A DNA stretch of 9,237 nt. It comes from Candidatus Eiseniibacteriota bacterium. GTDB lineage: Bacteria > JAFGKV01. Made by a program: the position numbers and the translations under genes. Below the pieces are notes generated by a model that saw only the letters and a list, made by a program, of their open reading frames with translations, did no database searches and was not told where the DNA came from. The stretch spans positions 1-9,237 of the forward strand of contig JALOPK010000231.1 in assembly GCA_025453925.1 (NCBI GenBank). Direction: 5' to 3'. This document shows positions 440 through 9,173 of the stretch, piece by piece; the stretch's first letter is position 1; every line of letters begins with the position of its first letter.

Positions 440-3112
440 TCAGTCGGCGCGGATCAGGAAGCGTTCGGCCGTGCTTCCCGATGCGCTGAGGCGGACAAGG
501 TAGACGCCCGCCGGCACCAAAGCGCCGCCGTAGTCCCTGCCATCCCACGTGACCCGGTTGGGACCCTCGGCGAAATGCCCTTCGCCAAGATCTCTGATCC
601 GGCGACCCGCCAGGTCGTGCAGCCCGAGCCGGACGGATGTGGCTGCCGGGAGCGTGACGATCATCGTTGCGACCCCGCGGCAGGGGTTCGGCGCGCAGTG
701 CAGGGATAGTGCGGAGGGGGCCGGACGGGGAAGGGCCGCGAGCGCGCCCACACGGAAGCACGACCCGGCGCAGAGCGGTCCACGCTCCACTCCGTCGAAT
801 GCATAGGCGCGCCACCAATAGACGCCGTCGGCCAGGTGAGGGGCGCGCCATGACGCCAAGTCATCCTCCGCGGGGACCTCGGGCGAGGAGGCGATCCGGG
901 TGAGGAACAGGGAATCGGCGTAGAGAAAGAAGCCACAGGCCAACGCATCGCCATCAGGGTCCGCCGCAGGGGCGACCGTCAGAACCGGGGCAGGCGTGTC
1001 CATCACGGATCCGTTCGGAGGGCTGACGGGGGCGGGTGCGGCGGGAGGGAGATTGCCGGGGGCCGGCCCCACGATGAGCACATCATCGACATGCCACCCG
1101 TCGGACGTAATGGACACATCGGTCTCCAGCCGGAACCGCAGGGTGAATGAGGGGGTCGCCCACCCGTCCAGGGGCAGTTCGACCCGCTCCCACCCGTGGC
1201 TGGTTCCGCTGTACTGCGGACCGACCTGACGCCACGAGGCGCCGCCATCGGCGGACGCCTCGACGACGCAGTGGTCATAGCTCTCCTCGGTCTCGCGGCG
1301 CTGCCAGAATGACAACGTCGCCGACGGCGCCAAGGAGAGATCAAGCGGTTGGGCCAGCCGAATCCACGAGTCTGTGTAGTTTTCATAGTCGCCTCCCGGA
1401 CTGTCGGTCATGGATCCCGACGGCGAGCATGCATCCTCATTGGTGATCTCCCAGGTTCCCGTGGCGACCCACGCCCCCTGTCCACGCTCGAAGTCATCAA
1501 AGAAGAGCCCGGGAGGCCGACCCACCATGCAGCGCACCGATTCTTCACCGCGGAATCCTCCCGTCACGATCCGTACCATCAGGGCCACGACATGGCCTTC
1601 GGGGGCGGCCGCGTCGACGGTGAGCGTGAGGGGATTGCCGGTCGCCGCGGTGTCGCCGGCAGCCAGCGCGATCAGCGAGGAGGAGGCCTCATGCAACTGC
1701 ACGTAGGCATCGTCGGTCATGACGGTGACCAGTGCGGCGTCGGCGTGAGCCGCGAATGCGCGATTCTCGATTTCCAGCGTCAGGCATACCGTTTCGCCGG
1801 GATCGATCCTGCCGTCGCCGTTCCCGCCGGAAACGCCCCATCCGGCAACGGCAAGCCAGGCGCCGGCGCTCTGCGCTGCATACAGCAGCGGCCAGCGGCA
1901 TTCATCAAGGAGCTCCGGCACTTCCGACTCCGCGGGCCAGAACCCCGATCCCCCGACCTCGATAGTGGTCGAGATGACCGCGTCTTTGGATTCCGTCTCT
2001 CCGTATGCCCAATCCAGCATCATGCCGCTGCACAGGTACAGCACTTCGGCGGGCTGGGCGACCACGTAGCCGTTCCGGCTCGACATGCGCCGGCCCCAGG
2101 CGCGGAGCGGGTCGTCATGCGGCGTGGGGGCACTGGTATAGCCCCAGGGAATCAGCGTCGCTCCCAGAAAGGAGTGCATCGACACATGGGTCGAGAAGCG
2201 CCCCGAGGCGATGAACGAGATCATGGCCTGCGTCTCGGGCTCCGATGCGGGCGACGGTCCGCGGTAGATGGAGCTGGAAGGAACCGGCGACGATCCGTTG
2301 TCGAGTCCCCACTGGAACGGGTAGTTGCGGTTCAGGTCAACTCCGAATGTCCCGTCACCGTTGTCCCGTCGGTTCTTGCGCCACATCCCGCCCCCGCCGG
2401 GATTCATGGCCTCATTGTAGGCCATGCCGTCGGGGTTCACCACTGGGAGGATGAAGAGCTCCCGACCGTCGACCATGGCGCGGGCCACGGGGTCATAGGG
2501 ATACGCCGCGCACAGCCATCCCGCGAAGTCGAGTATGGTCTCGACGGACATCATCTCCCTGGCATGGTGAAGACCGTCGAAGAGCACCTTGGGCTCGTCC
2601 TCGTCGGCGCAGGGGTTGTCGGAGATCTTCATGGCCCGTATGGGCCGGCCCTCCACGCTGGTCCCCACCGTGAACGGAGGCGAGGTGATTGCCGGGTGGG
2701 CGCCGTGAAGGCTGTCGAGAAAGGCCTCGGTCTCCGCGAGGGTGTGGTAGGCTCCCCACGCCGGCCCCGTGACGCCGCCGGCATAGGTTCGCTCCATGTC
2801 TCCCACCTCGATTTCGACGGGTACGCCCGACGCGCGCAACCTCTCGACAGCCAGAGAGTCGGTCACGACCCAGACGTGGTCACCCTTGCGGCCAATGATG
2901 TCGAGGTCCTCGGCCGGGAATGGCGGGCACTCCGAAACCGGCAGGCGGGCCTGGATGTACCGGGCGGCCGCCGTGCCGTGGAGCATGGCCAGCAGCGCGA
3001 ACCCGCTCGCAACACGGGCGGCCCTGCGAACCCGGGCAGCACGAGGGCGGGCTATCAGCCCTCCGCCCTGTCCCAAGCCTCCGGGATCACGGGAGGAAAT
3101 GACCAGCGACAT
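440..3112 (-). CDS. Secreted M14 zinc carboxypeptidase with C-terminal Ig-like sorting domain
   Basis: 890 residues. A basic N-terminus and hydrophobic stretch (about 25-50, ending GTAAA) form a signal peptide. The peptidase spans about 115-420. Zinc ligands are H183 and E186 (HARE motif) and H313 (SMHS). The substrate-binding N261/R262 lie in DLNRNYPF, a conserved NPDG sits at 226-229, YRGPSPASEPE near 283-293, and the catalytic Glu is E385 (TTIEVG). All key residues are present, so activity is likely. Then come a beta-rich region with NGDGRIDPGE (431-440), a jelly-roll/MAM-like module (about 537-682), a Fn3-like module (about 690-788) and a FlgD-type Ig-like domain (about 800-890, with WDGRDYGG and PAGVYLVRL). 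The family cleaves C-terminal residues from peptides, here probably outside the cell. The start is uncertain: GAGG lies only 2 nt before the ATG, and the ORF overlaps the upstream gene by 58 nt. Confidence 0.93.
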   Translation of the reverse strand: MSLVISSRDPGGLGQGGGLIARPRAARVRRAARVASGFALLAMLHGTAAARYIQARLPVSECPPFPAEDLDIIGRKGDHVWVVTDSLAVERLRASGVPVEIEVGDMERTYAGGVTGPAWGAYHTLAETEAFLDSLHGAHPAITSPPFTVGTSVEGRPIRAMKISDNPCADEDEPKVLFDGLHHAREMMSVETILDFAGWLCAAYPYDPVARAMVDGRELFILPVVNPDGMAYNEAMNPGGGGMWRKNRRDNGDGTFGVDLNRNYPFQWGLDNGSSPVPSSSIYRGPSPASEPETQAMISFIASGRFSTHVSMHSFLGATLIPWGYTSAPTPHDDPLRAWGRRMSSRNGYVVAQPAEVLYLCSGMMLDWAYGETESKDAVISTTIEVGGSGFWPAESEVPELLDECRWPLLYAAQSAGAWLAVAGWGVSGGNGDGRIDPGETVCLTLEIENRAFAAHADAALVTVMTDDAYVQLHEASSSLIALAAGDTAATGNPLTLTVDAAAPEGHVVALMVRIVTGGFRGEESVRCMVGRPPGLFFDDFERGQGAWVATGTWEITNEDACSPSGSMTDSPGGDYENYTDSWIRLAQPLDLSLAPSATLSFWQRRETEESYDHCVVEASADGGASWRQVGPQYSGTSHGWERVELPLDGWATPSFTLRFRLETDVSITSDGWHVDDVLIVGPAPGNLPPAAPAPVSPPNGSVMDTPAPVLTVAPAADPDGDALACGFFLYADSLFLTRIASSPEVPAEDDLASWRAPHLADGVYWWRAYAFDGVERGPLCAGSCFRVGALAALPRPAPSALSLHCAPNPCRGVATMIVTLPAATSVRLGLHDLAGRRIRDLGEGHFAEGPNRVTWDGRDYGGALVPAGVYLVRLSASGSTAERFLIRAD

Positions 3113-5598: not shown

Positions 5599-5627
5599 TT
5601 GGCATTCCGTGTCGCGGCCGCTATAAT
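5599..5627 (+). promoter_or_regulatory. Near-consensus sigma-70 promoter for the yedE transcript
   Basis: TTGGCA (5599-5604) is a 5/6 match to the -35 box. It is followed by exactly 17 nt and a perfect TATAAT (5622-5627), a striking AT-rich box in very GC-rich surroundings. Transcription would begin near 5634. This is about 265 nt before the yedE start codon, leaving a long untranslated leader. Confidence 0.75.
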
Positions 5628-5633
5628 GCCGCC

Positions 5634-5845
5634 CGGCGCGCGAATGTTCGCCCTTTTCACCTATCACCAGGAGCACCGATGTGACTGCCTTTCACCGCCA
5701 GACCTGATTGGCAACCCTGATCGCCGGCCGGCGATCCTGGGTTGGACTGCCTGCGCTGGGCGGCGGAGGTGGCCACAGGCTCTGATCTCGTTCTGAGCCT
5801 CCCCCCTGAGCCGTCGCCACAATGGCAGGCGACGGCTTCTTTTTT
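5634..5845 (+). promoter_or_regulatory. Structured 5' leader of yedE, candidate riboswitch or attenuator
   Basis: Between the promoter and yedE lies a leader of about 210 nt that can form nested helices. CACCT (5658-5662) pairs with AGGTG (5767-5771). CCGCCAG (5695-5701) pairs with CTGGGCGG (5756-5763, one bulged G). A strong hairpin at 5712-5744 has arms CAACCC/GGGTTG and GATCGCC/GGCGATC with a GGCC loop. An intrinsic terminator follows at 5809-5845. GGCGGCGG (5759-5766) can instead pair over all 8 bases (one G-U) with CCGTCGCC (5811-5818), the 5' arm of the terminator. The two folds are therefore mutually exclusive. I could not match a known riboswitch class. A stand-alone small RNA ending at the terminator is the alternative reading. 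High GC makes chance complementarity a real concern. Confidence 0.5.
5809..5845 (+). terminator. Intrinsic terminator in the yedE leader
   Basis: AGCCGTCGCC (5809-5818) pairs perfectly with GGCGACGGCT (5828-5837) across a 9-nt loop. The run TTCTTTTTT follows (5837-5845). It sits 54 nt before the yedE ATG and downstream of the yedE promoter, so it would stop transcription before the gene unless overridden. That placement is typical of attenuation control. Confidence 0.85.
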
Positions 5846-5899
5846 CCCCGGCGGCGCGCACGGGTTGCGCATCGCCGCGACTCTCACAGGAGGGAGACC

Positions 5900-7024
5900 A
5901 TGTCGCAACGTCTGACCCGTTTCTTCGCGTCCCGTTCCGGCATCATCCTCGCCGGGGCGATCATCGGCGTCATCGCGCCACTGCTCCAGAAACTGGGCAA
6001 TCCCGCAAACATGGGAATCTGCGTCGCCTGTTTCGAGCGCGACATCGCGGGCGCTCTGGGCCTGCACCGCGCGGCCGTGGTGCAGTACATCCGCCCGGAG
6101 ATCATCGGCTTCGTGCTGGGATCAATGCTGGCGGCGTATGCCTTCTCGGAGTTCCGCGCCCGGGCCGGTTCCGCGCCCATCGTTCGTTTCGTCCTTGGCA
6201 TGTTCGCCATGATCGGCGCTCTGGCGTTCCTGGGCTGTCCGTGGCGCGCCGCATTGCGCCTCGCAGCCGGAGATCTGAACGCCATCCTCGGTCTGGGGGG
6301 CCTCGCCGCCGGCATCGCCATCGGAGTGCAGTTCCTCAAGAACGGCTACAACCTGGGCCGCGCGCCGAAGACGCACACCGCGGCGGGCTGGATCATGCCG
6401 CTGCTCATGTTCAGCCTTCTCCTGCTGCGCATCGTCGCACCGGTCTTCGCCAAGGATGGGCCCATCTTCTTCAGTGCCGGCGGGCCGGGCTCGCTGCATG
6501 CGCCGCTGGTGGTTGCCCTCGCGGCGGGGCTGCTCATCGGCTTCCTCGCGCAGCGTACCCGTTTCTGCACCATGGGGGCCATACGCGACGTGATTCTCAT
6601 GCGGGATGCGCATCTCCTCAGCGGTATGGGAACGCTCATCGTGGTCGCGGCGATCATGAATCTGATCCTTGGACAGACCCGCCTCGGTGTCGCGGGCCAG
6701 CCCGTGGCCCACAGCAGCCATGTCTGGAACTTCGCGGGGATGATGCTGTCCGGCCTTGCATTCGCCCTCGCGGGCGGCTGCCCGGGGCGGCAGCTTTTCC
6801 TGGCAGGCGAGGGAGACGGCGACGCGGCGGTGTTCGTGGTCGGGATGATTACCGGGGCGGCCTTCTCCCACAACTTCGCCCTTGCCGGCTCCCCGGACAA
6901 AGCCGTCGACGGAATCGCCACGGTGGGTGGGCTGACGCCCAACGGCATGGGCGCCGTTATCCTCGGGTTGGTGGTGTGCCTGCTCATCGGTTTCACCATG
7001 CGCGAGCGGACGAAGGAGGTCTGA
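5900..7024 (+). CDS. yedE: YedE family putative selenium transporter
   Basis: 374-residue integral membrane protein with about ten hydrophobic segments. The motif NMGICVACFERDIAGALGLH (37-56) followed by RPEIIGFVLGS is diagnostic of the selenium-linked YedE branch of the YeeE/YedE family. The protein is a two-fold repeat: the first half has C41, C44 and GCPWRAALRLAAGD (C113), the second has RTRFCTMGAIRD (C223) and GGCPGRQLFLAGEGDGDA (C294). Conserved cysteines line the path in the related thiosulfate transporter, so a reduced sulfur- or selenium-containing ligand fits. The start at 5900 is chosen because AGGAGGGAG lies just upstream. An in-frame ATG at 5822 falls inside the terminator and would add an Arg-rich, non-family tail. 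TusA-like begins 1 nt after the stop. Expression is probably governed by the upstream leader. The transport substrate is inferred from the family and neighbours. Confidence 0.92.
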   Translation: MSQRLTRFFASRSGIILAGAIIGVIAPLLQKLGNPANMGICVACFERDIAGALGLHRAAVVQYIRPEIIGFVLGSMLAAYAFSEFRARAGSAPIVRFVLGMFAMIGALAFLGCPWRAALRLAAGDLNAILGLGGLAAGIAIGVQFLKNGYNLGRAPKTHTAAGWIMPLLMFSLLLLRIVAPVFAKDGPIFFSAGGPGSLHAPLVVALAAGLLIGFLAQRTRFCTMGAIRDVILMRDAHLLSGMGTLIVVAAIMNLILGQTRLGVAGQPVAHSSHVWNFAGMMLSGLAFALAGGCPGRQLFLAGEGDGDAAVFVVGMITGAAFSHNFALAGSPDKAVDGIATVGGLTPNGMGAVILGLVVCLLIGFTMRERTKEV

Positions 7025-7025
7025 G

Positions 7026-7232
7026 ATGAAGGCAGTCGACGCACGAGGGCTCTCCTGCCCGCAGCCGGTCATTCTGACCCGCAGGGCCATAGAGAACGGG
7101 CAGTTCCCCATTGAGGTGCTGGTGGATACCGTGACCGCCCGCGAGAACGTTCGCCGCATGGCCGAGAAGGCCGGCTGCACGGTCACGATGCGCGCCGCAG
7201 GCGACGACATCGCGTTGACCATCAGCAGGTGA
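7026..7232 (+). CDS. TusA/SirA-like sulfur or selenium carrier
   Basis: 68 residues, one TusA (SirA-like) domain. The start MKAVDARGLSCPQPVILTRR has the family CPxP motif, with the active cysteine at C11 that carries a persulfide or perselenide. The remainder follows the usual beta-alpha-beta-alpha-beta-beta pattern (VLVDTVTARENVRRMAEKAGC). Full YedF proteins of selenium operons add a C-terminal DsrE-type domain, which is absent here. The gene begins 1 nt after the yedE stop, with GGAGG 5 nt before the ATG, so the two are cotranscribed and probably work together: YedE imports, this protein accepts or passes on the chalcogen. A second gene with a nearly identical N-terminus starts at 9179. Which of Se or S it carries cannot be told from sequence. 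Confidence 0.9.
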   Translation: MKAVDARGLSCPQPVILTRRAIENGQFPIEVLVDTVTARENVRRMAEKAGCTVTMRAAGDDIALTISR

Positions 7233-7573: not shown

Positions 7574-8728
7574 ATGATCTACTTCGACAATGCGGCGACA
7601 TCATGGCCGAAGCCGCCGTGTGTGGTCGAGGCCATGATGCACTTCATGGCGGAAGTCGGTGCTAACCCCGGCCGCTCCGGGCATCGTCTGGCCGTGGAAG
7701 CCGCCCGCGTCGTCTACGGTGCGCGGGAGGCCGTGGCGCAGGTGCTGAACGCCCCGGACCCCCTGCGGGTCGTGTTCGGCGCCAATGCCACTGAGGGATT
7801 GAACCTGGCGTTGCACGGGCTGCTCAGGCCGGGCGACCATGTGATCACGAGCAGCATGGAACACAACTCCGTCATGCGGCCGCTTCGGGTGCTGGCCCGG
7901 AATGGCGTGGAACTGACCGTCGTGGGCTGTTCCCCACAGGGAATACTCGATCCGGATGATCTCGAGCGCGCTATCCGGCCCACGACACGAATGATCGCCC
8001 TCATCCACGCCTCCAATGTGACGGGCACGGTCTTGCCCATCGCCGAGGCAGGGCACATTGCACGCGAGCATGACACCCTCTTCCTGGTGGACGCAGCGCA
8101 GACCGCGGGGGCCTATCCCATTGACGTGCACGCCGATGCCATCGATCTGCTCGCCTTCTCCGGCCACAAATCCCTCTACGGGCCCATGGGCACGGGCGGA
8201 CTGGTGATCGGCGACCGGGTGGACGTCGCGAGACTTACACCGCTCAAGCAGGGAGGCACCGGCAGCCGCTCGGAGCACGAGGAGCAACCCGGCTTCCTTC
8301 CCGACGTGTGCGAGAGCGGCACCCCCAATGCGGTAGGCCTTGCCGGGCTGGCCGCCGGCGCGCGCTGGGTGATGGCCCGGGGAGTCGAAGGAATCCGGGC
8401 GCATCAGATGGCCCTGACCGAGGAGTTGTTGCGTGGCCTGGAGAGCATCACGGGAGTCACGATCTACGGCCCCCGCGACGCGCAACGACAGACCGCGACG
8501 GTCTCGTTCACCATCGCCGGCATGGAGACATCTGAAGCCGGTCTTCGACTGGACGATGACTATGGGATCATGTGCCGCGTGGGGCTGCACTGCGCACCGG
8601 CGGCACACCGCACGCTGGGCACCTTCCCCGCGGGCACCGTGCGCTTTGGGTTGGGCGGGTTCAGCTCGACCGAGGAAGTCGCGACCGCAGTGGATGCGAT
8701 CGCGGCACTGGCGCGGAAGGCGTCATGA
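7574..8728 (+). CDS. Cysteine desulfurase family protein (selenium-cluster type)
   Basis: 384 residues, class V aminotransferase fold, PLP-dependent. It opens with MIYFDNAATSWPKP, the usual start of the branch found beside selenium genes. H97 (MEHNS) stacks on the cofactor, D173 and Q176 (LVDAAQTAG) bind it, and K199 (SGHKSLYGP) forms the Schiff base. RVGLHCAP carries the catalytic cysteine C340, and GGTGSRSEHEEQP (227-239) is the conserved loop near the active site. All key residues are intact, so it should remove S from cysteine (or Se from selenocysteine) and form a persulfide or perselenide on C340. Length is normal for the family. GGAG lies 5 nt before the ATG. The stop overlaps the DUF3343 start by 4 nt (ATGA), indicating translational coupling and making the DUF3343 protein a likely acceptor. 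General Fe-S or tRNA-thiolation roles are less likely given the neighbours. Confidence 0.92.
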   Translation: MIYFDNAATSWPKPPCVVEAMMHFMAEVGANPGRSGHRLAVEAARVVYGAREAVAQVLNAPDPLRVVFGANATEGLNLALHGLLRPGDHVITSSMEHNSVMRPLRVLARNGVELTVVGCSPQGILDPDDLERAIRPTTRMIALIHASNVTGTVLPIAEAGHIAREHDTLFLVDAAQTAGAYPIDVHADAIDLLAFSGHKSLYGPMGTGGLVIGDRVDVARLTPLKQGGTGSRSEHEEQPGFLPDVCESGTPNAVGLAGLAAGARWVMARGVEGIRAHQMALTEELLRGLESITGVTIYGPRDAQRQTATVSFTIAGMETSEAGLRLDDDYGIMCRVGLHCAPAAHRTLGTFPAGTVRFGLGGFSSTEEVATAVDAIAALARKAS

Positions 8729-8964
8729 GCGGCGATTCTTACTCGGTGATCCTGGTCCACTCCACCAGCCATGCGATGCGTATCGAGAAGCTGCTCGGCG
8801 AACGAGGAGTCGCCTGCAAGATGATCCCCGTGCCGCGGCAGATCAGCTCCGATTGCGGTGTGTGTATTCGAATCCTTCAACAGGACGTCGAGCCCGCCAG
8901 ACGGGCGGTCGCGGCTGCCATCGAGATTCAGGGGATTGTCCCCATTCAAGGAGGTCTGCGATGA
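8725..8964 (+). CDS. DUF3343 putative Se/S carrier protein
   Basis: 79 residues, matching the DUF3343 family in length and motifs: VHSTSHAMRIEKLLGERGV (11-29), then IPVPRQISSDCGVCIRI (34-50). The conserved SSDCG places a cysteine at C44, with further cysteines at C47 and C31. The C44-C47 pair (CGVC) could hold a persulfide or perselenide or bind metal. The family co-occurs with YedE, TusA-like proteins and this desulfurase type in selenium-using genomes and is described as a putative Se/S carrier; no reaction is proven. Starting inside the desulfurase stop (ATGA overlap) and ending in an ATGA overlap with the Mop gene, it is coupled to both. The short start at 8725 is preferred over a longer in-frame one at 8572, which would lie deep inside the desulfurase gene. 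Confidence 0.9.
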   Translation: MSGDSYSVILVHSTSHAMRIEKLLGERGVACKMIPVPRQISSDCGVCIRILQQDVEPARRAVAAAIEIQGIVPIQGGLR

Positions 8965-9173
8965 GAGTCGGTGCACGGAATCAGCTTAAGGGCACGGTGA
9001 CGGCGATCACGCGTGGTGACGTGATGGCGCAGATCAAGTTCGCGATCCCCGCCGAATCGACGATGGGATCAGTCATCACCGTGGAGTCGCTGGACGAAAT
9101 GGAACTCAAGATCGGCGACGAGGTTCTGCTGTTCGTCAAGGCCATTCACGTCCTTCCGGTCAAAGAGGCATAG
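8961..9173 (+). CDS. mop: Molbindin-type molybdopterin/molybdate-binding (Mop/TOBE) protein
   Basis: 70 residues, a single Mop (TOBE-like) domain. Conserved blocks are ARNQLKGTVTAITRGDVMA (5-23), SVITVESLDEMELKIGDEV (37-55) and FVKAIHVLPVKE. Stand-alone molbindins assemble as hexamers of small beta-barrels and bind molybdate or tungstate as a cytoplasmic store or buffer. The start at 8961 has AAGGAGGT upstream (8948-8955) and overlaps the DUF3343 stop by 4 nt. Placement inside a selenium carrier operon suggests a link between Mo/W supply and Se delivery, as in selenium-dependent molybdenum hydroxylases, which need both. A longer frame from 8433 is only an out-of-frame overlap with the desulfurase. 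The gene is followed 5 nt later by another TusA-like gene. Confidence 0.9.
   Translation: MRVGARNQLKGTVTAITRGDVMAQIKFAIPAESTMGSVITVESLDEMELKIGDEVLLFVKAIHVLPVKEA

Follow-up and report, generated by a model that had tools for sequence, protein, structure and literature searches.

Leader-peptide attenuators such as trpL, hisL and ivbL consist of a short open reading frame (ORF) led by a Shine-Dalgarno (SD) sequence and containing a run of control codons, alternative pairings between RNA segments (1:2, 2:3 and 3:4), and an intrinsic terminator ahead of the genes that supply the same amino acid; the position of the ribosome sets the fold. Here we describe an element with these same parts in a 9,237-nt contig of Candidatus Eiseniibacteriota bacterium (JALOPK010000231.1, analysed over its full length and referred to as the window), located directly upstream of yedE, a putative selenium transporter gene. 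Judging from sequence comparison, this element is very probably a ribosome-mediated transcription attenuator that senses the supply of selenocysteine (Sec), with a recoded UGA as the control codon. In contrast to the run of control codons in trpL, hisL and ivbL, the element has a single one, a stop codon presumably recoded as Sec. Furthermore, segments 1 and 2 are separated by a Sec insertion sequence (SECIS) hairpin, the frame past the UGA ends at a second in-frame stop, and the downstream genes are those for selenium uptake and delivery.

Bacterial SECIS elements, such as those of fdhF and fdhA, are close counterparts of the hairpin in question, which has an 18-nt gap between the UGA and the loop and shares its geometry with FdhA from the same genomes. 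However, the fdhF and fdhA elements serve selenoenzymes, whereas the one described here is embedded in a non-conserved leader peptide and would have a regulatory use. A SECIS-like element in the Escherichia coli selAB leader, described by Thanbichler and Bock in 2002, reportedly mediates feedback from the Sec supply through SelB. That leader likewise carries a SECIS in the 5' region of selenium genes, but is not known to contain a leader ORF with a UGA or a terminator/antiterminator pair, and SelB binding there reportedly controls translation. With terminator-type riboswitches, the element shares the mutually exclusive terminator and antiterminator, but it has no aptamer, and the translating ribosome would be the sensor. 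No leader or attenuator with a Sec codon turned up in a full-text literature search confined to open-licence papers; neither leaders nor attenuation are mentioned in a 2026 review of prokaryotic selenoproteomes, and selenium is absent from a broad survey of bacterial attenuators. Leader attenuation and SECIS elements are each known, and their combination appears to be new.

Table 1. Features of the leader and the downstream genes in the window.
Feature	Coordinates	Strand	Basis
Sigma-70-type promoter, TTGGCA-17-TATAAT	5599..5627	+	11/12 consensus bases; 0.0 expected in shuffled sequence
SD of the leader ORF, AGGAG	5669..5673	+	7 nt ahead of GTG
Leader ORF, GTG ACT GCC TTT CAC CGC CAG ACC UGA (VTAFHRQT-U)	5681..5707	+	Sequence and relatives
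Segment 1, CACCGCC within leader codons, partner of segment 2	5693..5699	+	P1 helix, 6/7 pairs compensatory
UGA control codon, proposed Sec codon	5705..5707	+	Hairpin scan with all stop codons; invariant column in alignment A4
Readthrough frame, closed by a second stop at UGA 5783-5785 (78 nt past the first)	5708..5785	+	Stop-distance count
Bacterial SECIS (bSECIS)-like hairpin	5713..5743	+	-21.4 kcal/mol; covariation; bSECIS constraints; FdhA-like geometry
Segment 2, antiterminator 5' strand (CUGCCUGCGCUGGGCGGCGGAGG)	5747..5769	+	Own-partner pairing, z = -9.6; 9/9 antiterminator pairs compensatory
Intrinsic terminator; 5' arm and loop double as antiterminator 3' strand	5809..5845	+	Fold and covariation
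yedE, putative selenium transporter, regulated gene	5900..7024	+	TIGR04112, 476.8 bits (cut-off 200)
TusA-domain, YedF-like protein	7026..7232	+	PF01206; N-terminal part of TIGR03527, below cut-off
Cysteine desulfurase family protein, SclA-like	7574..8728	+	TIGR01977, 456.6 bits (cut-off 377); NF040779 (SclA), 373 bits (cut-off 525), below cut-off
Se/S carrier-like protein (DUF3343)	8719..8964	+	PF11823, 8e-21

A DNA similarity search over 98 genomes matched only the same-genus relative, a Candidatus Fermentibacteria metagenome-assembled genome (MAG; denoted G001), and the class was therefore traced through yedE loci instead. Comparison of 80 such loci from many phyla revealed the same layout in Chloroflexota, Desulfobacterota and other lineages, namely, an SD, an ORF of 4-14 codons that ends in UGA, a hairpin whose loop is GGUU, GGUC or AGUU, a segment rich in G, another in-frame stop, a strong terminator and yedE, in that order. 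About 34 of 81 yedE upstream regions carry this layout with a 21-nt spacing between the UGA and the loop. In G001, the block at the equivalent site before yedE is 87% identical to that of the window in its best-matching part (the yedE proteins are 84% identical), is more conserved than its flanks, and keeps the promoter (as TTGCCA-17-TACAAT), leader ORF, UGA, SECIS and segment 2 (locus L033, G001:C22, 1865-2080).

With the GTG at 5681 and its AGGAG, the conserved block is readable as a short ORF that ends in UGA, followed by a SECIS-like hairpin. The latter comprises an upper stem (5719-5725/5730-5736), the loop GGCC (5726-5729) and a lower stem, AACCC/GGGUU. The constraints reported for bSECIS are a loop of 3-9 nt, an upper stem of 4-16 bp, a G in the first two loop positions, a gap of 16-37 nt between the UGA and the loop, and a minimum free energy at or below -7.5 kcal/mol (PMC13188914). 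The hairpin in the window, with its 4-nt loop, 7-bp stem, 18-nt gap (21 nt counted from the U of the UGA) and the energy given in Table 1, falls within these limits. In every one of the 46 leaders compared, including the window with its GGCC, there is a G at the first or second loop position, and the energy is at or below -7.5 kcal/mol in 45.

A hairpin scan in which all three stop codons were allowed yielded 58 GG-loop hairpins in the 81 yedE upstream regions. At 21 nt before the first loop G, TGA was found 21 times, and TAA and TAG not once; in the rest of the loci, there were 10 TGA at this distance among 859 GG-loop hairpins. FdhA genes in the same genomes contain one in-frame TGA each, within the motif NVDHCARLU, followed by a GGUC loop at the identical 21 nt, and the window's own genome (G000) has such an FdhA, with the same motif and spacing. 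SelB, SelA and tRNASec are all present in this genome. More generally, 23 genomes were tested for tRNASec, of which 22 scored above the cut-off and the one below it carries selB; for two loci where selB at first appeared to be missing (L049 and L069), tRNASec was nevertheless found. The presence of selB does not discriminate between yedE genomes with and without the leader, being nearly universal in both. The leader UGA would be decoded as Sec, and the SECIS would be bound by SelB. An invariant UGA accompanied by a SECIS ahead of selenium genes corresponds to the control codon of leader-peptide attenuators.

The frame that follows the UGA is open for at least 54 nt in all 46 leaders. The next in-frame stop lies 57-110 nt past the UGA in 45 of the 46 (mode, 78 nt), compared with 11 and 14 in the other two frames, and is located 20-38 nt ahead of the terminator in nearly all leaders. 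Any stop codon serves as this second stop (UGA in 22 leaders, UAG in 16 and UAA in 8), whereas the first stop is UGA in each of the 46. An SD with an in-frame start precedes the UGA in 40 of 46 leaders versus 8% of random TGAs, as expected of the short ORF of an attenuator. The leader peptides of the relatives include MTLWYHRRT-U, MLHHRRT-U, MPYHSLI-U and similar sequences. The leader of locus L072 (upstream of 5001) contains two in-frame UGAs ahead of the SECIS (MLHRT-UGA-N-UGA), the second of these at 21 nt. On the minus strand of window positions 5681-5800, one frame reads NQVWR-TGA-KAVT, with NQVWR-Cys-KAVT in G001, probably by chance; reverse-strand coding with a possible Sec/Cys pair was dropped as a candidate because it is the plus strand that carries the promoter, the terminator and the SD, together with every conserved feature.

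The RNA from 5630 to 5845 folds at -97 kcal/mol (z = -3.57 relative to shuffled sequences, none of 200 being equally stable). A preliminary description of this DNA, made from the letters of the window, had proposed a nested-helix leader behind a near-perfect promoter; the stable fold and the promoter hold, but the supposed aptamer-like domain is better read as a short coding region plus the SECIS hairpin. The strong intrinsic terminator that it placed ahead of yedE was recovered as well, with arms AGCCGUCGCC (5809-5818) and GGCGACGGCU (5828-5837), a 9-nt loop and -19.5 kcal/mol, followed by UUCUUUUUU. The simple terminator scanner permits loops of 3-8 nt, and this terminator is therefore outside its range. 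Both of the exclusive pairings proposed for GGCGGCGG (5759-5766) are present, one with CCGCC (5695-5699) and the other with CCGUCGCC (5811-5818; all 8 positions paired, with a single G-U), and the homologous pairings covary in relatives. CCGCC pairs as claimed, but sits within leader codons upstream of the UGA rather than in an aptamer.

In an alignment of 27 leaders (A4), 90% of the cells in P1 (segment 1:2), the SECIS and the terminator are paired, and 20 of the 23 pairs are compensatory (0 of 500 shuffles). All 9 antiterminator pairs are compensatory as well, with 90% of the cells paired compared with 21-39% when the strand is slid by 1-3 columns; helix covariation upstream of yedE in relatives, posed as a check in the preliminary description, was thus found. 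Segment 2 pairs with its own terminator far better than with the terminators of other leaders (z = -9.6; 0 of 5000 permutations). For RNA free of ribosomes, the median predicted terminator probability over the 27 leaders is 0.91; it drops to 0.055 when a ribosome sits on the UGA and reaches 0.98 when one sits on the second stop. In an Anaerolineales subgroup, the segment 1:2 pairing is absent and the antiterminator is the default state for most members; readthrough alone would therefore turn expression off there.

Under the proposed mechanism, a ribosome would start at GTG 5681 and reach the UGA at 5705, backed by the SECIS. With SelB and Sec-tRNASec available, the UGA would be read as Sec and the ribosome would traverse both the SECIS and segment 2 before reaching the stop at 5783; this transit would block the pairing of segment 2, the terminator at 5809-5845 would form, and yedE would be off. 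When Sec is short, the ribosome would wait or terminate at the UGA, covering segment 1 but not segment 2, and the free segment 2 would pair with the 5' arm and loop of the terminator, producing the antiterminator and allowing transcription of the selenium genes. In an untranslated leader, segment 1 would pair with segment 2 and the terminator would be the default, except in the Anaerolineales subgroup. We infer Sec insertion, ribosome pausing and the direction of the switch, whereby a Sec-replete state is off and expression rises on Sec shortage, as in leader-peptide attenuators. The increase of yedE mRNA on selenium depletion in Methanococcus maripaludis (PMC11097638) fits the proposed sign, though in another organism.

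The preliminary description spoke of a riboswitch or attenuator. A terminator/antiterminator switch linked to selenium and placed before a selenium operon is supported by the covarying helices, but of the two alternatives only the attenuator stands, because the leader ORF with its in-frame UGA and SECIS would be the sensor. The ligand that had been considered (a selenium species, a Mo/W cofactor or other) is not borne out by any sign of an aptamer, and charged Sec-tRNA on the ribosome is likely what is sensed. A conventional metabolite riboswitch that recognizes a selenium species or a Mo/W cofactor and acts through a terminator platform would account for a terminator/antiterminator switch with covarying helices before metabolic genes. 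It would, however, leave the coding-type features unexplained, and invariance is confined to the UGA and to three Gs of the SECIS (loop and stem), with no conserved core for a ligand pocket. No Rfam covariance model reached the gathering threshold on the element, in agreement with the earlier statement that the pattern matches no familiar riboswitch class, and we consider this explanation highly improbable. The Rfam scan, which had been suggested as a check for an unrelated stand-alone RNA, gave no match on the element to 6S RNA, tRNA or other families, and the 6S RNA of this genome is encoded on another contig. A stand-alone small RNA that ends by chance upstream of yedE would be expected to have its own promoter and terminator, as is the case here, but in many lineages selenium genes follow the element directly, and its antiterminator covaries, making such an RNA extremely improbable.

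Three further explanations retain the SECIS but assign it a different role. SelB, together with Sec-tRNA and GTP, could repress by binding the SECIS without readthrough, as a selenium-dependent roadblock or a stabilizer of the fold. A SECIS that occupies the 5' region of a selenium gene, in a genome with SelB, is compatible with this possibility, and the E. coli selAB leader reportedly offers a precedent in its SECIS-like element, but the start codon with its SD, the UGA fixed at 21 nt and the frame-specific second stop would have no explanation, and we find such repression unlikely. The same device might work with the opposite sign, with Sec readthrough turning the genes on, for example, via SECIS melting or translational coupling. 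The direction is deduced rather than observed, and G001 lacks a terminator. Nevertheless, a ribosome at the second stop, which in nearly all leaders is 20-38 nt short of the terminator, lets the latter form, whereas a ribosome on the UGA frees segment 2; moreover, induction by shortage would be expected of a selenium importer, which the behavior of yedE mRNA in M. maripaludis fits (PMC11097638). The reversed sign thus appears quite unlikely. Finally, the frame could encode a small functional selenoprotein, VTAFHRQT-U-LATLIAGRRSWVGLPALGGGGGHRL, with the terminator merely tuning its expression. The readthrough frame is open, and the substitutions between the window and G001, mainly in third codon positions (3/1/9), first suggested such a selenoprotein. 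This excess was not repeated in eight further pairs: over nine close pairs, the post-UGA substitutions show no codon-position bias (25/30/30), which favours a leader peptide over a functional selenoprotein. The conserved protein sequence expected of a selenoprotein was not found either, the peptides varying in sequence and length across lineages without a CxxU-type motif, although no search for Cys homologues was made; the conserved letters belong to the RNA helices. A functional selenoprotein is accordingly very unlikely.

Several observations weigh against the Sec-sensing attenuator. The counts of leaders, codons and helices take no account of shared ancestry, and part of the 46-leader set, in which the first stop is UGA in all cases, was selected by scans that required TGA, the scan with all stop codons being the unbiased count. 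P1 is missing in about 7 leaders, and the terminator is still favoured with a ribosome on the UGA in 9 of 27. In the window, the SECIS loop is GGCC rather than the GGUU, GGUC or AGUU of most relatives; the terminator and antiterminator are mutually exclusive, but the energy balance nevertheless favours the terminator, which wins at equilibrium in every ribosome state, and it is only in the partly transcribed RNA that the segment 2 pairs rise from 1.9 to 5.2 with a ribosome on the UGA. G001 has no terminator 3' arm or U-tract (lost or never acquired), and its regulation may be translational or Rho-dependent. Given the terminator favoured in all states in the window and the lack of one in G001, the Fermentibacteria copies may be weaker members of the class or modified ones. 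In addition, about 8 yedE upstream regions from delta-proteobacterial MAGs carry weaker variants with a UGA-loop distance of 28-30 nt (25-27 nt as the spacing between the UGA and the SECIS) and unlike sequences; the variant loci, upstream of 5001, are L063, L066, L075, L076, L077, L096 and L098, and also L062.

Leader peptides of the variants in delta-proteobacterial MAGs include MKSR-U and MKNTATPFSLR-U. In the Syntrophaceae variants, the leader sequence CCCTTTTCTC can pair with GAGAGAAAAAGGG, located past the SECIS, and next comes a third segment that resembles CCCTCTTTTCCC; read from these predicted pairings, this is the same switching logic in different letters.

Characterized in sequence by its conserved architecture, covarying exclusive helices, constrained second stop and accompanying Sec machinery, the element probably represents a widespread attenuator class, spanning several phyla, in which Sec insertion versus termination at a leader UGA sets the transcription of selenium import and delivery genes. 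A covariance model (R1) detected one copy per genome in 39 of 396 genomes of the class that includes G104, an Anaerolineae-type Chloroflexota MAG (the genome of locus L041). The UGA is at the expected place in 29 of the 29 new matches that could be located, 27 by script and two by eye. The gene that follows is mostly yedE, the others including an SclA-like cysteine desulfurase (L161, L164, L168 and L171), SelD (L153) and YedF (L165). In the class of another genome, G112, the element was found in 4 of 46 genomes, one with two copies, one before a cysteine desulfurase. The matched open frame of the L153 selD, behind a leader of this class, starts only at model position 50, and this gene may have its own Sec codon upstream of that position. 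The gene behind the L144 leader encodes a TIM-barrel protein that weakly matches CbiR (cobamide-remodelling; 31.7 bits versus a cut-off of 105), possibly an unrecognised selenium-related gene.

If the proposed mechanism is correct, this would be the first attenuator to read the 21st amino acid. The cell would count Sec-charged ribosomes at the leader UGA, which would add Sec to the 20 standard amino acids as a target of leader-peptide attenuation and provide the SECIS with a role in regulation. Selenium sensing and the control of its uptake in bacteria are largely open questions: a LysR-type selenium regulator has been predicted by comparative genomics (PMC5322559) and, as of 2024, no dedicated selenium transporter had been proven (PMC11097638). 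The element offers a direct, testable answer, and could serve as a marker for further selenium genes and a source of candidate selenium reporters.

Among the genes downstream of yedE in the window (Table 1), the YedF-like protein (68 aa) consists of the N-terminal TusA domain only and lacks the C-terminal portion of the YedF model (194 aa). A Mop/TOBE molybdopterin-binding protein (8955-9173) closes the selenium gene cluster. A Mop/TOBE protein is also encoded directly upstream of yedE in L062 and L073, and these positions hint at a link between molybdate and selenium handling. Elsewhere in the window, the minus strand of 440-3112 encodes an M14 zinc carboxypeptidase of the secreted type, whose C-terminal domains are MAM/choice-of-anchor J-like and FlgD-Ig.
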